NCBI GenBank assembly: GCA_947623225.1
Contig: CANQGO010000009.1
Location: 1-61,774 of the forward strand
From: an uncultured Clostridia bacterium
GTDB taxonomy: Bacteria; Bacillota; Clostridia; Christensenellales; CAG-314
DNA: 61,774 nt
Direction: 5' to 3'
The number at the start of each line of letters is the position of its first letter. Position 1 is the first letter of the stretch. Both the position numbers and the translations under genes were made by a program. Positions 10,385 through 15,984 of the stretch are shown in pieces. The notes under the pieces were generated by a model, which was given only the letters and a program-made list of their open reading frames with translations, was not told the DNA's origin and made no database searches.

Positions 10385-11515
10385 CTACTCCCAGCCCATA
10401 GACGCGGGGAAAAGCATCTCTATCTCCGCCTCGTTGAGCAGCACGCGCTTCTCGGTGCCCGCTCCGTCCTCCGGCCGCACCCGCTCCACGCAGTTCAACG
10501 CCTGCAGTCCGCTCAGTATCAGAGTCGCACGCCCGTAGCCCACGCCCAGCCCGCGCTGCAACGCAACCACGTCCGCCACTCCGCCGTTGTCCCGCAACCA
10601 GAACAGTATAGCCCGCTTGGTCAGTGCGTCCAGCGGCTTTGCCAGCGGCACTATCACAAACGACCACTTGGCTCCCAGTTTGCGCGCCTGCACGTTGGGG
10701 TTCTTGATCGAGTCGCGGAACCCGACCAGGCAGGTCTCCACGTCGTTGTGAGAGTAGCGTTCCCGCGTGTACAGCACATACCTCGCCGCGTCGGGCCCGA
10801 ACTGTATGGAACGCAACTCGGCAAATACCAGCGACAGCACCAGCCTCTTTTCTATCTGCTCCTCCGCGTTGGTATACGCCGCATAGTCCACGTCCCGCAC
10901 GTACAGCGCGTTCCTGGCTTCGTCGAACAGTTTGCGCTCCTCGTCAGATATACTGCTCAGATACTTCTCCTCGTCATACGCGTTGTAGTCGTATGAGAAA
11001 AACTCGTCATAGTCTATGTCCGGCGACATGGAATCGTCGTAGTAATCTTCTTCGGCGTCCCAGTCTCCTTCCTCGTCGTCGGAGTCCTCGTCACCCTCTT
11101 CGGAACCGTCATCCTCGTCCGACTCTTCATCGTCCTCTTCTTCGTCGAGATCGTCCTCGTCGTCGGACTCGTCTTCGTCCTCGGTGTCTTCGTCGTCGCT
11201 GTCGTCTTCTTCGTCATCGTCTTCGTCATCTGCCATAGCGGCGAGACGCTCCATGAGAGCCTTGCGGCGGCGGTCCGCTTCGTCCATATCGTCGTCCCGA
11301 TCCGTACGGACGGCGGACGATTTGGCTTGAGCGGGGTGTTCGGCGGTAGGCGGACCGAAGGTCAGCCCTTCGTAGAAGGAGAGCCGACCCTCATCCGTGA
11401 GAGAGCGGACGCACTCGCGTATCTCGCCGTAGCTTGCGCCCGTCTCACGCTGCACTTCGGCTATGGTGAAGGTGCCCTTGCTCAGCAATAGTTGTCTAAG
11501 ATCGTCTTTGGTCAT
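10385..11515 (-). CDS. Acidic linker protein with N-terminal winged helix and FtsK-gamma-like C-terminal domain
   Basis: A 376-residue protein. Residues 1-50 look like a winged helix-turn-helix (FTIAEVQRETGASYGEIREC). Residues about 96-190 are almost entirely Asp, Glu and Ser. The last 65 residues (LQRGLGVGYGRATLILSGLQ) resemble the FtsK/SpoIIIE gamma DNA-reading winged helix, normally fused to a translocase motor. Here the motor-like partner is the separate VirD4-type gene just upstream (9-nt gap). The start has a GGAGG site. It is the last gene of the clpP operon. The role is unknown; sequence-specific DNA recognition for the neighbouring ATPase is an inference. Alternatively it is an unrelated tandem wHTH protein. 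Confidence 0.7.
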   Translation of the reverse strand: MTKDDLRQLLLSKGTFTIAEVQRETGASYGEIRECVRSLTDEGRLSFYEGLTFGPPTAEHPAQAKSSAVRTDRDDDMDEADRRRKALMERLAAMADDEDDDEEDDSDDEDTEDEDESDDEDDLDEEEDDEESDEDDGSEEGDEDSDDEEGDWDAEEDYYDDSMSPDIDYDEFFSYDYNAYDEEKYLSSISDEERKLFDEARNALYVRDVDYAAYTNAEEQIEKRLVLSLVFAELRSIQFGPDAARYVLYTRERYSHNDVETCLVGFRDSIKNPNVQARKLGAKWSFVIVPLAKPLDALTKRAILFWLRDNGGVADVVALQRGLGVGYGRATLILSGLQALNCVERVRPEDGAGTEKRVLLNEAEIEMLFPASMGWE

Positions 11516-11524
11516 ATTGCCTCC

Positions 11525-13213
11525 TCAGAAACGTCTGTGTCTGCCTCTGGGATGGAACGTATAGCGGTACTTGGCGTCCAACGTATTCAACTCGCACTCA
11601 TAGTCGGACGAGTCGAAGGGACGCTCGCAGCGAAACTCTGCGCACTTATACGACCGCTCCATTCTGGACAGCAGCACATATCCGCAGCGCGCCTCCGTCA
11701 CGACGCATTCTCCTTCCGCCAGCGTAGCCAGCGTGCTTTTGGGCATACGGGGTACGGGTTCCAGCATGAAGGCTTCTATCTTGTCCGTGCTGCCGCACAA
11801 CGCGCTCTTCGGGGATATGCGCGTGTACTCTCCGCACTCACGGGAAAATTCCTCCAGCGTCTCGGGATTGTTGCTGCCCAGGAATATGTGCATATTCAGG
11901 TTATCTCGTATTATCTTGGCGGTTTTCTCGCCGTATACATTGTCCAACTGCGCATAACTCTGCAGTACCAGCATGAAGAAAATATTTCTGCTGCGGCATG
12001 CGGATATGACTACGTCCGCGTCGGGGAAGGGCGGCAAATTGCCGAACTCGTCCAGCAGGAAGTAGAAGGGCGTATCCAACTTGCCCTCGGGCTGCGCATT
12101 GGCATGGCGGATAAGGAAATTGTACAAGCACTGCAAGAGAGTGGATATGACCTTGTAGTGCGTTTTCAACTCATCCTGATAGGATATGAACAGTGCCACC
12201 GGCTTGTCGTCGCGCACCAGCTCTTCCAACTCGAAACTATTGGCTGCGGTGATCAGACGTACCGCACTGGAGCGGTAGGGCGCGAGGGCGGTATTCAGTT
12301 CGGATATGATACAGCCGCGCGTGACTCTGCCCAGGCTCAGTATGCAGTTGTTGGCAAATCTGAGCGCGAGGGAGTCGGGCGAGCGTCCCGTGAAGAAGCC
12401 GCCGTCGTCGAAGCGGTCGTCGCCGTTGGACATGGAGTCGAATATGGTTATGAGCGTATTGAAGGAGAAGTTGTCCCTCGTGATGGGCACCACGTTCTCG
12501 TCCGTCGGGTGCGTGTCCTCCAACATTCCCCATATGCCGGCTTTGAGCATCAGTCTCGCGCTCTCCGGCCAATAGGCTTCCTTGGACAGGTCGTTGGACA
12601 CCATCTTCACCGCCAGTTCGTCTACGCTGTTTTGCACGTCCTCCAAGGCTACCGCCTTGGCGCGCTCCACCGCCAGATCCAACTCCCGCTGATCGTCGTA
12701 GATCCTGCCCATGAATTTGCTGCGCACTCCCTCCGGCGTATCCACCGCTTCCACCTTGTCTTCCAGAGTCAACGCCGCCGTATATGCGTCGTATATGTCC
12801 GTCAGGGGGTTCCACTTCTCCGAGTGCAGGGGATTGCGGAAGTTGATACAGTACACCCTGTAGCCGCGCTCCGCCAACGCGTAGTAGTGCTTGCGCAGCA
12901 ACTCGCCCTTCGGGTCGGCTATGACCATGGAGCGCGGACGTTTCATATGGGAAAACGTACGTATCACCGGGTCCACTATGCCCGTCGTCTTGCCCATGCC
13001 GGTGGCGGCTATGACGCATACGTGCGTGTCGCCGTTGGTGTACGCCTGCTGCAGCTGCCCGTCCTTGTAGAAGCAGGCTTTGGGAAAGCCCGTCTGCTCC
13101 GTCTCGCTCAGTTTACTGTAGGGCACGAGGGGCACATTGGTACCGTCTATCTCCCGATAGTCTATCAGTTCCGTATTTTCGTATCCGCGTATAAGTTCTT
13201 TCTCTAATATCAT
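11525..13213 (-). CDS. VirD4/TraG-like coupling-protein ATPase, no membrane anchor
   Basis: A 562-residue P-loop ATPase of the type IV coupling protein group. Walker A is AATGMGKTTG (about residues 69-78), followed by IADPKGELL, Walker B LLDEFGNLPP (about 386-395) and the arginine-finger-region motif FLGSNNPET. Type IV coupling proteins normally have N-terminal transmembrane helices; none is visible here, so it should be soluble. No relaxase, VirB4 or channel gene is nearby. The ATG overlaps the upstream stop (ATGA), and an acidic FtsK-gamma-like gene follows. The substrate is unknown; it could be a chromosomal DNA or protein translocase rather than a conjugation factor. Confidence 0.88.
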   Translation of the reverse strand: MILEKELIRGYENTELIDYREIDGTNVPLVPYSKLSETEQTGFPKACFYKDGQLQQAYTNGDTHVCVIAATGMGKTTGIVDPVIRTFSHMKRPRSMVIADPKGELLRKHYYALAERGYRVYCINFRNPLHSEKWNPLTDIYDAYTAALTLEDKVEAVDTPEGVRSKFMGRIYDDQRELDLAVERAKAVALEDVQNSVDELAVKMVSNDLSKEAYWPESARLMLKAGIWGMLEDTHPTDENVVPITRDNFSFNTLITIFDSMSNGDDRFDDGGFFTGRSPDSLALRFANNCILSLGRVTRGCIISELNTALAPYRSSAVRLITAANSFELEELVRDDKPVALFISYQDELKTHYKVISTLLQCLYNFLIRHANAQPEGKLDTPFYFLLDEFGNLPPFPDADVVISACRSRNIFFMLVLQSYAQLDNVYGEKTAKIIRDNLNMHIFLGSNNPETLEEFSRECGEYTRISPKSALCGSTDKIEAFMLEPVPRMPKSTLATLAEGECVVTEARCGYVLLSRMERSYKCAEFRCERPFDSSDYECELNTLDAKYRYTFHPRGRHRRF

Positions 13214-14787
13214 TGCTTGTACCCTCCGAATCCGAAATTATTCTCCGACTTGTCCCTGCCGTACTCATCGGTGAGCACTTTCAGCAAGTCGGCAGACGGC
13301 TGTTCGCCGTCGGGAGTGGAACGGAACAGTTTTTCCGTGATCTTTCTCGCCGTAGTCAGGGGATAGCGCACCAGCGTGCGTACCGTCTTCTCCGACAGCG
13401 GCTGTATGTCGCTGCGACGCAGTTCCTCGCGCAGTTCCTCTTCCGCCTCGCGGATGAAGGTCATCTTCTCCTCGTCCGTCATGGCGTCGAGGTATATCTT
13501 CGCCTCATCCGGTACGTAGCGAGCCGAGTGCGAGTCGCACAGACAGTACACCAGCACGTCGGACATGTCCAGCGTGACAGCAGGTCTGCGCAGAACGTAA
13601 TTGTTCTTGTTGGCGAGGAATTCGTTCACGTTGTGCAGTACCTCCTCGGACACCTTGCCGTCCAGGCGCAGTATGAGCACGTTGCATACGCCGTTGATAC
13701 AGCTGCGCAAAAATACATTGCTCACGGTGCGTTCGAAGTCGGGCTGATGCAGGTGCTCGACGTTGATGGTCTCCACGTGCTCGTGTCCCATACTTCTGTG
13801 CGCGCATACCAGCATGTCCTCCGCCTTGTCCAGCACGTCCTCGTCATCGCAGACGAAGCCGACGGTGGACTGCTTGCGGTGTATGTACATGTCCGCCGCG
13901 CGGCGGAACTGCTCTGCTCGGAAGCCCGAGGCGGTCTTTGCAAGCAACGTCGGCGCGGAAGTGGCATAGTGCGTGTCCGTAGGCAGCAACGCCAACTCCT
14001 CCTCCGAGTACTCCTTGCGCAGTACGAGTTTTTCTCTGTCGCTGTCGGATAGGTTGCGCGTGTATATTATATTGTAATACAGCGGGCTGACCCTTCCGAA
14101 CTCTATCTTGTCCGACTTGACGGCTTCTATGAGCAGATAGGCATTTTGCGCGTAGCGAGCGCGCTTGCGCGCGGCGTACGGCTCGGGATAGGGATATCCG
14201 TAGTAGTCGCAGGCGCACAGCAGCGTGGCGACGTAGTCGGGTGCACCGCTTGCAAACTCGGGCGTACGTACGCAGTACAACAGCGACGTGTAGTCCATCC
14301 AGGACGCCGCCGCATGCAGCCACTTCTGCCCGTCGTGGCTCGCGTTGGGCAATATGCCCTCCGCCAGCAGCAGTCCGCCTATACGCAGCGCGTCCACTAT
14401 CCCGTCCTCCGCCGCGCCGTACAGGTTCTTCCACAACTGCATCACCGTCATGCTGGGAGAAGCGAGCAGGTTTTCCGACATTAGCTTGCGTATTGCGTTG
14501 ACCTTGATGGCTATCATCTGCTGCTGCAGTTCCGTCAAGGGGTTTTCCTGCCGCCGTATACGCAGTACCTCGCAGGAGCGGTAATACAAGTTGCAGTCGT
14601 GTTCGTTGGTGAGTTCCGCCAACTCGGGTGCGCTGCACATGTCTCTGAAGCGGCACGCCTGCTCGTCGGACACACCGTATATGCGCAGGAACAATTCCAG
14701 TATGCGCTTATCATCGGCAGAGCCGCCTACGGCAAGACATGTCTTGAAGTAATCGGTCAACATTATTTCATATACTGATTCCAACAT
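13210..14787 (-). CDS. Protein of unknown function in the clpP-virD4 operon, possibly a degenerate AAA+ protein
   Basis: A 525-residue protein I do not recognise. The N-terminal half is helical and resembles an alpha-helical repeat or scaffold. The C-terminal part (about 330-500) has a strand/helix pattern reminiscent of an AAA+ module. It includes NVLILRLDG, DVLVYCLCD and a lid-like helical end (TVRTLVRYPLTTARK), but there is no Walker A P-loop. The start chosen is the ATG at 14787, 6 nt after an AAGGAGG site embedded in the clpP 3' end; a TTG two codons earlier is also in frame. The gap to clpP is 2 nt, and it overlaps the VirD4-like gene by ATGA. Confidence 0.6.
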   Translation of the reverse strand: MLESVYEIMLTDYFKTCLAVGGSADDKRILELFLRIYGVSDEQACRFRDMCSAPELAELTNEHDCNLYYRSCEVLRIRRQENPLTELQQQMIAIKVNAIRKLMSENLLASPSMTVMQLWKNLYGAAEDGIVDALRIGGLLLAEGILPNASHDGQKWLHAAASWMDYTSLLYCVRTPEFASGAPDYVATLLCACDYYGYPYPEPYAARKRARYAQNAYLLIEAVKSDKIEFGRVSPLYYNIIYTRNLSDSDREKLVLRKEYSEEELALLPTDTHYATSAPTLLAKTASGFRAEQFRRAADMYIHRKQSTVGFVCDDEDVLDKAEDMLVCAHRSMGHEHVETINVEHLHQPDFERTVSNVFLRSCINGVCNVLILRLDGKVSEEVLHNVNEFLANKNNYVLRRPAVTLDMSDVLVYCLCDSHSARYVPDEAKIYLDAMTDEEKMTFIREAEEELREELRRSDIQPLSEKTVRTLVRYPLTTARKITEKLFRSTPDGEQPSADLLKVLTDEYGRDKSENNFGFGGYKQ

Positions 14788-14789
14788 GA

Positions 14790-15353
14790 TCAACCTCCTT
14801 TTGCTTTGTTTCTCGTGGGTATCACGTCGTCTATGAGTCCATACGCCTTGGCCTCCGCCGCGTCCATGATCTTGTCACGGTCGGTGTCCTGGCTTATTTC
14901 CTCTATAGACTTGCCCGTGTTCTCCGCCAGTACGGTATTCAGTCTTCTGCGAATACGCTCTATGTGATTGGCGGCGATTATTATGTCGCTCGCCTGTCCG
15001 CTCGCCCCGCCGAGAGGTTGATGGATGAGTATTTCGCAGTTTTCCGTGGCGCGACGGTATCCCTTGCTGCCTGCCGAGAGCAAAAATGCTCCCATGCTGG
15101 CTGCCATACCGATGCCTACGGTGACTATACGCGCCTTGACGAAGTTCATCGTGTCATATATTGCCAGCCCCGCGCTTACACTGCCGCCGGGACAGTCTAT
15201 GATCTGTACGGTGATCTCGTCGACGCCTTTGTTGTCCAGGTATTGCAGTTGGGATATGACCAACTCCGCCTTCTGCGAGTCTATCTCGCCGACGACGTTG
15301 ATGGTATTGTGCTGCAATGAGTAATCATACGAAAAAGTCTCGTTTTTAGCCAT
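14790..15353 (-). CDS. ClpP-family serine protease
   Basis: A 187-residue self-compartmentalising protease subunit. The triad is present with canonical spacing: Ser86 in GMAASMGAFLL, His111 in LIHQPLGG (25 apart), Asp160 in DTDRDKIMDA (49 apart). The oxyanion loop CPGGSV is also present. The N-terminus (MAKNETFSYDYSLQHNTIN) lacks the usual MIPxVxExTxRGERxYDIYSRLLK axial-loop sequence that helps docking to ClpX/ClpA, so the partner may differ. No tig, clpX or lon is adjacent, unlike the housekeeping locus. It is the first gene of a four-gene operon, with a GGAGG site and its own promoter. This is probably an additional paralogue; I leave the symbol blank. Confidence 0.92.
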   Translation of the reverse strand: MAKNETFSYDYSLQHNTINVVGEIDSQKAELVISQLQYLDNKGVDEITVQIIDCPGGSVSAGLAIYDTMNFVKARIVTVGIGMAASMGAFLLSAGSKGYRRATENCEILIHQPLGGASGQASDIIIAANHIERIRRRLNTVLAENTGKSIEEISQDTDRDKIMDAAEAKAYGLIDDVIPTRNKAKGG

Positions 15354-15436
15354 AGTTACCTCCTTTATGCGGGGAGCGGCTCTGTATGCTTGTATGGTTT
15401 TGAGCCTGACCTCCCTTCTATTTGTTTTGTATTACA

Positions 15437-15465
15437 ATTGTATACCCTTTTGGGGCATATGTCGA
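15437..15465 (-). promoter_or_regulatory. Promoter of the clpP-virD4 operon
   Basis: TCGACA (15460-15465), 17 bp, TACAAT (15437-15442) on the minus strand, giving a leader of about 78 nt before clpP. Confidence 0.6.
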
Positions 15466-15559: not shown

Positions 15560-15895
15560 TCACTTGACGTACACAAGTATGTCGTCCAGACTCACGTGGG
15601 CTATCTGACAGTAAAAAAGCAGATCTTCTATACCTATCTCCGTTCTGCCCGATTCCCAATTGTTGATGACGCTGTCGGATACGCCGAATACCTGCGCCAA
15701 CTCGGGACGGCTTATGCTCCTGTCCATATACATATCGTCACACTCGTCACAGGACGGAGCCGCACTCTCGCACTTATCCGTACCCGCACGCAGGACGCTG
15801 CATACATATCGCCTCAGCAGAGCGTTGTCGCTGCGCAAACGGAACAACTTGTTTCCCGTTGCTTGCCAATCTATGAACTTTCGAATTACTTTCAT
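15560..15895 (-). CDS. Small XRE-type helix-turn-helix regulator, leaderless
   Basis: A 111-residue protein with a basic N-terminal half and a C-terminal HTH (ELAQVFGVSDSVINNWESGR), typical of Cro/CI-type DNA binding but placed at the C-terminal end. The ATG at 15895 lies only 7 nt after a TATACT -10 box with a 17-bp-spaced TTGAGC, so transcription should begin at or next to the A of the ATG and no Shine-Dalgarno can be present. A TTG at 15958 in the same frame lies upstream of this promoter. Four cysteines (one in the N-terminal half, two in CDEC, one late) could bind metal; this is speculative. The target is unknown. Confidence 0.72.
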   Translation of the reverse strand: MKVIRKFIDWQATGNKLFRLRSDNALLRRYVCSVLRAGTDKCESAAPSCDECDDMYMDRSISRPELAQVFGVSDSVINNWESGRTEIGIEDLLFYCQIAHVSLDDILVYVK

Positions 15896-15902
15896 AATGC
15901 AT

Positions 15903-15931
15903 AGTATACCATCATTTCCGCATTTGCTCAA
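15903..15931 (-). promoter_or_regulatory. Promoter producing a leaderless mRNA for the HTH gene
   Basis: TTGAGC (15926-15931), 17 bp, TATACT (15903-15908) on the minus strand. The expected start site coincides with the ATG at 15895. Confidence 0.7.
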
Positions 15932-15984
15932 CTGTTTTCTTCCATTTTGCGCTGACAATTTTGTTCTGCAGGGTCACAGACAAC

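Follow-up and report, generated by a model that had tools for sequence, protein, structure and literature searches.

The known drivers of the ClpP protease are AAA+ unfoldases of the Clp family, as in ClpXP, ClpAP and ClpCP, where the AAA+ partner carries a hydrophobic-Gly-Phe docking motif on an internal loop. Lon proteases (LonA/LONP1) join an AAA+ module with a Walker A motif to a Ser-Lys protease domain, coupling proteins of the VirD4/CD1115 type are membrane-anchored ATPases with a T4SS-DNA_transf domain (PF02534), and FtsK and SpoIIIE combine a membrane part and a beta motor with alpha and gamma domains. Here we describe a four-gene operon on the minus strand of a 61,774-nucleotide (nt) stretch of DNA (the window; contig CANQGO010000009.1) from an uncultured Clostridia bacterium of the order Christensenellales, which resembles each of these systems in part and is part of a conserved system with an invariant two-gene core. 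It encodes a ClpP with an intact triad, a protein with a predicted Lon-type AAA+ fold and a motif resembling the ClpP-docking one (pseudo-Lon, or the adaptor), a VirD4-like ATPase with intact Walker A and B motifs, and a fourth protein with the alpha and gamma domains of FtsK.

The differences are equally marked. In contrast to the Clp proteases, the AAA+ partner lacks a P-loop, resembles Lon most closely and bears its motif as a C-terminal tail, while the operon's only intact ATPase is VirD4-like and its ClpP is devoid of the N-terminal hairpin motif. Unlike Lon, pseudo-Lon has neither a Walker A motif nor a Ser-Lys protease domain, and Sel1-like repeats precede its AAA+ module. The VirD4-like protein differs from coupling proteins in its missing membrane anchor, in having no recognised relaxase or channel genes beside it and in its pairing with pseudo-Lon and often ClpP; the fourth protein differs from FtsK and SpoIIIE in the absence of the beta motor and the membrane part, the motor being kept in one homologue. 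Because the operon thus does not qualify as a Clp or Lon ATPase (P-loop absent), as Lon (protease domain absent), as a membrane-anchored coupling protein (anchor absent) or as FtsK (motor absent), we regard the system as new and built from known folds, and a search of one literature library found no paper joining ClpP, VirD4 and FtsK. It might function in the manner of a Clp protease, by a mechanism that we propose below with moderate confidence. The features of the operon, in the order of transcription, are as follows.

15437..15465, minus strand: promoter-like site 5' of clpP (consensus match only)
14790..15353, minus strand: operon ClpP gene, 187 amino acids (aa), serine-protease barrel subunit (PF00574, 1e-63)
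13210..14787, minus strand: pseudo-Lon adaptor gene, 525 aa, with Sel1-like repeats, a dead Lon-type AAA+ module (predicted) and a C-terminal tail
14233..14451, minus strand: Sel1-like repeat segment of pseudo-Lon (approximate; profile match)
13255..14082, minus strand: predicted Lon-type AAA+ module of pseudo-Lon (model residues 237-512)
13834..13863, minus strand: position of the missing P-loop of pseudo-Lon, strand 1 running into helix 1
13228..13236, minus strand: F-G-F tripeptide in the C-terminal, ClpP-docking-like tail of pseudo-Lon
11525..13213, minus strand: soluble VirD4-like ATPase gene, 562 aa (PF02534, 4.2e-41; Walker A and B intact)
12986..13009, minus strand: VirD4 Walker A (AATGMGKT)
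12044..12067, minus strand: VirD4 Walker B (FYFLLDEF)
10385..11515, minus strand: motorless FtsK derivative gene, 376 aa, acidic (gamma-like winged helix, acidic arm, FtsK-alpha, FtsK-gamma)
10640..10939, minus strand: FtsK-alpha-like domain of the fourth protein (hhalign)
10400..10636, minus strand: FtsK-gamma domain of the fourth protein (hhalign and blastp)

Organisation and distribution of the operon

A reading of the window from sequence alone had described these four minus-strand genes as sharing one promoter, and the open reading frames (ORFs) confirm the arrangement: the clpP stop and the pseudo-Lon ATG are +2 nt apart, pseudo-Lon and virD4 overlap (-4 nt), and a gap of +9 nt separates virD4 from the acidic gene. 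The pseudo-Lon ORF spans 13210-14793, within which a ribosome-binding site overlapping the clpP end and an ATG place the likely start at 14787, giving 525 aa. A single promoter-like site, at 15465-15437, fits the consensus at 10/12 positions, but sites of this kind (6 in the region, against 3.4 with a standard deviation of 2.0 in shuffles) are in no clear excess. Family searches returned no usable match for pseudo-Lon in Pfam, NCBIfam or PADLOC and weak helix-turn-helix (HTH) or FtsK_gamma matches only for the acidic protein.

Used as a single query, the 525-aa protein matched 11 of 151 genomes, its own included. A profile of 11 members matched 54 of 396 genomes of the order at 1e-3, and 37 of the 396 (again with its own) scored >100 bits and were spread over 8 families; the other 17 matches, at <40 bits and in the N-terminal, Sel1-like part, were not counted as carriers. 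Across the class, the profile at 1e-15 matched its own genome alone among 391 genomes (0 of the 390 others). Within the genus 9 of 25 genomes carry the system, and its presence is therefore patchy. A VirD4 of the operon type (>800 bits) was found in all nine of these carriers and in none of the 16 non-carriers; longer VirD4s were additionally present in G004 (288 bits) and G020 (286 bits). No viral or plasmid copies were found in a viral scan with patterns of four close relatives and a plasmid search with one relative, and a contig search gave no match with the window pseudo-Lon and four loci with four relatives, all in the existing set (G019, G014, G246 and G001).

Gene order was counted in 40 fetched loci, with adjacency defined as same strand and a gap of -150 to 100 nt. 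A VirD4-type gene lies directly downstream of the pseudo-Lon gene, in the same direction, at 35 of the 40; of the five remaining loci one is a contig end and four belong to genomes of one genus, in all of which a VirD4 of this kind is encoded at another place; in G319 the distance is about 20 kb, on one and the same contig. The clpP gene lies directly upstream of pseudo-Lon at 21/40 loci by this rule, or 24/40 with the addition of two loci whose predicted starts are over-long (L059, L081) and of L080, where another gene intervenes, and a gene with FtsK-gamma follows virD4 at 15/40. Neither clpP nor the fourth gene occurs everywhere, which leaves pseudo-Lon plus VirD4 as the invariant core. Apart from the displaced virD4 of those four genomes, relatives showed neither scattered genes nor an integrative conjugative element, and the 525-aa protein matched no known conjugation factor.

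The pseudo-Lon adaptor, its tail and the operon ClpP

On its predicted model, pseudo-Lon is a P-loop-less AAA+ protein of the Lon type, as the sequence-only reading had suspected. The fold is supported by profile comparison and by Foldseek comparison of the predicted model, not of a solved structure, the follow-up comparison with Lon being a second look at Foldseek's own candidates; the TM-score to Lon over the whole model is low (0.36) because one domain of several is matched, and the window protein alone, searched by sequence against the PDB, gave chance-level matches only. None of 39 members has GxxxxGK[ST] at the P-loop position, the sole strict match (L072) lying elsewhere, at residue 380. 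Beyond the AAA+ lid the protein has only a short tail and no Lon protease domain. Further upstream in the chain, Sel1 proteins are matched by positions ~112-184 of the profile from alignment A5, from which L023 and L025, probably one copy split by contig ends, were excluded. The Pfam model for Sel1 (PF08238) matches 5/39 members (best 0.0011) and not the window protein itself. Sel1 repeats are typical protein-binding modules.

The tail pattern [FYIL]G[FY] occurs within the last 15 residues in 39/39 members, compared with 1/128 neighbour proteins, and a wider version of it in 4/128 neighbours, 0/12 VirD4 and 0/11 ClpP proteins; 3 columns of the alignment are invariant, the Gly of this pattern among them, and the half-copy at L023 ends in Y-G-F-G-G plus a few residues. 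In the predicted model the tail (residues 513-526) has a predicted local distance difference test (pLDDT) value <50. It is C-terminal and not in a loop, and reads I/L-G-F in 9/39 members and F/Y-G-F/Y in 30/39. The ClpP-docking motif is given as (L/I/V)-G-(F/L) in a passage of PMC8745299.

The operon ClpP of the window is 46.7% identical to the other ClpP of its genome. Its Ser-His-Asp triad, already read as intact from the sequence, is conserved in position in 25/25 operon ClpPs. By a sequence test the N-terminal hairpin motif is present in 0/25 operon ClpPs and in 18/20 other ClpPs, two of the latter (from L155) being unusual rather than housekeeping proteins. In E. coli ClpP, residues 2-18 form an axial hairpin collar, according to part of PMC7112951. 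Ahead of the ClpP core there are 8-18 residues in 19/25 operon ClpPs and 25-54 in six. At the positions of the Clp-ATPase pocket, which we take to be Tyr62, Phe112 and Leu114, Tyr is replaced by Gln in 22/25 operon ClpPs and Leu by Thr in 20/25, and the aromatic residue by Arg, Ser, Lys, Ala or Cys in 25/25. The Arg equivalent to E. coli R192 is kept in 4/25 operon ClpPs as against 18/20 others; the same part of PMC7112951 reports that R192 touches the IGF loop and that R192K abolishes ClpX binding. Since the hairpin motif is absent and the pocket altered, the operon ClpP looks specialised for another partner. Elsewhere, L155:8027-9106 (G271:C103) encodes tandem unusual ClpPs, one of which is ClpR-like, with the triad Ser and His replaced (Asp, Glu).

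The form of the tail varied with the presence of a dedicated ClpP (Fisher 5.7e-5). Tail residue 1 is aromatic in 23/24 loci with a dedicated ClpP, whereas the 11 loci counted without one have I/L-G-F in 8 and F-G-F in 3 (residue 1 aliphatic in 8/11), and their genomes hold a single ClpP match in 10 cases and none in G319. Four loci whose genomes contain other unusual or operon-type ClpPs (L064, L067, L068 and L071, all F-G-F) were set aside before this count.

The VirD4-like ATPase, the FtsK derivative and neighbouring genes

The PF02534 match covers residues 48-466 of the 562-residue VirD4-like protein, and Walker A is retained in 36/36 operon VirD4s. Members of the VirD4 family are hexameric. 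The absence of a membrane helix, claimed from the sequence for the window copy, extends to the whole set: an N-terminal hydrophobic helix was found in 0/36 (best value over the first 150 residues 1.18), compared with 2.65 and 3.18 in the longer, membrane-anchored VirD4s of L193 and L195. Against the conju_CD1115 model the window protein scores 229 bits, under the cut-off of 250. In 20 carrier genomes, this one included, the relaxase family PF03432 was found in two, on other contigs, and in none of the remaining 18, while the VirB4-like family PF12846 was above cut-off in three, with some match in 10. The genome of the window itself, 92% complete, has no PF03432 and no PF12846 match (other relaxase and channel families were not tested), in line with the earlier statement that no relaxase or VirB4 gene is present. 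The annotated flanks of the loci (the 25 commonest of 65 Pfam families in 128 neighbours) are a mixture of housekeeping genes and genes for surface proteins, and among them neither a relaxase nor a channel gene was recognised beside the operon. As far as PF03432, PF12846 and the annotated flanks cover it, there is no sign that the operon serves conjugation.

For the fourth protein, the AlphaFold2 model was too poor for use (pLDDT 57, predicted TM-score 0.28), so its domains rest on hhalign, run with six of the seven rows of alignment A3 (L023 dropped) against the domains of 16 housekeeping FtsKs from this genome and relatives. The FtsK-gamma likeness proposed earlier was confirmed and an FtsK-alpha domain was additionally found: the C-terminus matches FtsK-gamma (probability 99.8, E 1.8e-30), the middle part FtsK-alpha (96.8, E 3e-10, 91 columns; 0.1 against FtsK-beta and 6.8 against gamma), and at the N-terminus there is another gamma-like winged helix (95.7), these pairwise E-values being free of database correction and wrong-domain controls giving probabilities <=7. 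None of the three parts matched FtsK-beta. By blastp the window gamma is at best 44% identical to a housekeeping FtsK of the genus and is the most diverged of six compared, the five others reaching 55-65%; in those five the reading helix, at the position we take for it, is nearly unchanged by eye. At L062:12482-14863 (G260) the fourth gene combines the acidic arm and gamma with an FtsK-type motor (Walker A), possibly the ancestral form. Because this equivalent keeps the motor, loss of the motor from an FtsK paralogue is the best reading of the usual fourth protein.

In G020 (L228:6694-7581), which lacks the three other genes of the system (pseudo-Lon, the operon-type VirD4 and the operon clpP), a small DUF1292-like domain is fused ahead of FtsK-alpha and gamma. 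This domain is 45-65% identical to small system-associated proteins of weak DUF1292 likeness (18.3 bits, under the cut-off of 24), whose genes immediately precede clpP in six loci and lie close to the system in two others; the fusion connects these small proteins with the FtsK derivative. In the window no such gene stands beside clpP. Small proteins with a tandem double FtsK-gamma also occur outside FtsK (G113:C23:13175-13633 and G196:C5:22414-22869, the latter L057:14014-14469).

The neighbours of the operon in the window are metK and recD2, housekeeping genes as previously noted, and one further gene lies upstream of clpP.

15560..15958, minus strand: HTH protein gene upstream of clpP, possible regulator (PF01381, 1.4e-6)

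This HTH protein has a cysteine cluster before the HTH, kept in homologues, and may be a zinc-binding regulator of the operon. Members of its cluster also precede the system in L059, L060 and L068, and a 71% homologue stands beside, and divergent from, the FtsK alpha-gamma fusion of G020. Upstream of clpP or the adaptor, nine loci (L015:8212-8913 and relatives) encode a conserved protein of ~235 aa without a Pfam match, whose C-terminal part appears helical and DNA-binding-like by eye and which is another possible regulator. Large BspA-type leucine-rich-repeat or Listeria-Bacteroides-repeat proteins with hydrophobic helices, as well as RuvB-like AAA+ and Hsp70-like proteins, recur upstream in L015, L018, L019, L022, L056 and L057.

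Proposed mechanism and rival explanations

We consider it an evenly balanced question whether the operon encodes a chromosomal energy-dependent protease of new architecture, in which a VirD4-class motor powers ClpP by way of a dead Lon-like adaptor. The VirD4-like ATPase, a hexamer by family, would be the motor. Pseudo-Lon, with ATP binding lost and no Lon protease domain, would form a motor-dead AAA+ ring whose [FYIL]-G-[FY] tail docks into the apical pockets of ClpP, and by this docking would couple motor and protease. The operon ClpP would be a dedicated, loosely gated barrel, given that its N-terminal gate is lost and its pocket altered, and in lineages without it pseudo-Lon would dock onto the housekeeping ClpP. 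In the lineages that have it, the FtsK alpha-gamma protein would act as a DNA-reading loader that brings the motor to DNA. VirD4 would pull protein, or DNA with bound protein, and displaced protein would enter the ungated ClpP; most likely, the machine would travel along DNA or pull at DNA-bound protein, delivering what it removes to ClpP. Ring formation, physical contacts, the direction of transport, substrates and DNA targeting are what we infer here from the sequences, and the stripping or degradation of proteins on DNA, first proposed in the sequence-only reading, would be part of this model. A passage of PMC9035409 indicates that a six-fold ring can sit on the seven-fold ClpP via flexible elements, as with the loops of ClpX. 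A broader claim, that this is a new protease class in which ClpP gets its power, by way of a dead Lon ring, from a motor of the DNA-translocase family (VirD4/FtsK/HerA lineage) instead of an AAA+ unfoldase, and which degrades proteins on chosen DNA, is plausible, though we would not yet lean towards it.

Several observations weigh against this protease. The clpP gene stands beside the adaptor at 24/40 loci at most and the FtsK-gamma gene after virD4 at 15/40, and neither is universal; the sequence-only interpretation was in this respect supported in its parts and in their recurring order and not as a set of four genes. The tail is F/Y-G-F/Y in 30/39 members and not the canonical I/L/V-G-F, the fold similarity of pseudo-Lon proves no function, and the reading helix of the window gamma is, by eye, unlike that of housekeeping FtsK. 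Six of the 25 operon ClpP ORFs have 25-54 pre-core residues, perhaps through over-long start calls, so that the lost gate rests on the missing motif. The covariation of tail and ClpP is not significant by sign test because the three independent pairs on supported branches are too few; in 200 random pairings the tail went the expected way in 1.7 pairs on average, with one opposite pair in 7/200, and the trend had the expected direction in most. Moreover, we found no precedent in the literature for a VirD4 motor feeding a protease.

A related possibility, which overlaps with the protease proposed here and would narrow its purpose, is that the system helps FtsK in chromosome maintenance, the alpha-gamma protein reading FtsK sites while the machine clears proteins that are stuck or crosslinked from the path of FtsK or of replication forks. 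The 55-65% identity to FtsK of five gamma copies with their nearly unchanged reading helix, the motor retained in L062 and the persistence of the alpha-gamma fusion in G020 without the rest of the system speak for such a role, which the small share of loci with the FtsK-gamma gene (15/40), the 16/25 genus members without the system and the diverged gamma of the window make possible but rather doubtful. Pseudo-Lon might instead be a substrate or assembly adaptor of an ordinary Clp machine, in which ClpP works with housekeeping ClpX or ClpC, its tail a tether to ClpP and its Sel1 repeats, which typically bind proteins, a means to bring substrates, with VirD4 in a separate DNA role. That 10/11 carrier genomes without operon clpP have a single ClpP match, and 8 of the 11 an I/L-G-F tail, would fit; the strictest partner of pseudo-Lon is however VirD4 and not ClpP, and the operon ClpPs are changed at the very pocket used by Clp ATPases and lack the gate hairpin motif, and we judge this account unlikely.

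Defence against phages or plasmids, where VirD4 would sense invading DNA or its translocation and ClpP would degrade phage proteins or kill the cell, would agree with the patchy presence in the genus, with flanking genes that vary between genera and with the fast evolution of the adaptor, which in ten relatives is 19-41% identical to the window protein as compared with 64-77% for ClpP. PADLOC matched the VirD4 to part of mad8 (4.5e-12), a component assigned to MADS by model name, and gave no match for the adaptor, ClpP or the acidic protein. The same search at 1e-10 found no defence island among the 128 nearest flanking proteins, only two HTH regulators and one RmrA-type match; with metK and recD2 as neighbours and gamma domains whose resemblance to host FtsK would point to the host chromosome, defence appears improbable. 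Nothing pointing to sporulation, also raised by the sequence-only reading, turned up, and no test was aimed at it. Finally, descent from a conjugative element, as a remnant or in domesticated form, with the coupling protein surviving among unrelated neighbours, is suggested by the closeness of the VirD4 to the CD1115 conjugal-transfer family. It is very improbable in view of an adaptor-VirD4 order kept across 8 families with Walker A in 36/36, of a membrane anchor missing from all 36 and present in the VirD4s of L193 and L195, of PF03432 (the one relaxase family tested) being absent from 18/20 carrier genomes and on other contigs in two, and of annotated neighbours among which no type IV secretion system was recognised.

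If the protease driven by VirD4 proposed here is real, its three-residue tail and changed ClpP pocket would be expected to bind each other and not their housekeeping partners. The hexameric motor lineages of protein unfoldases and DNA pumps would then be interchangeable in a proteolytic machine, and DNA-directed proteolysis, useful for instance in removing DNA-protein crosslinks, would be built into these bacteria.

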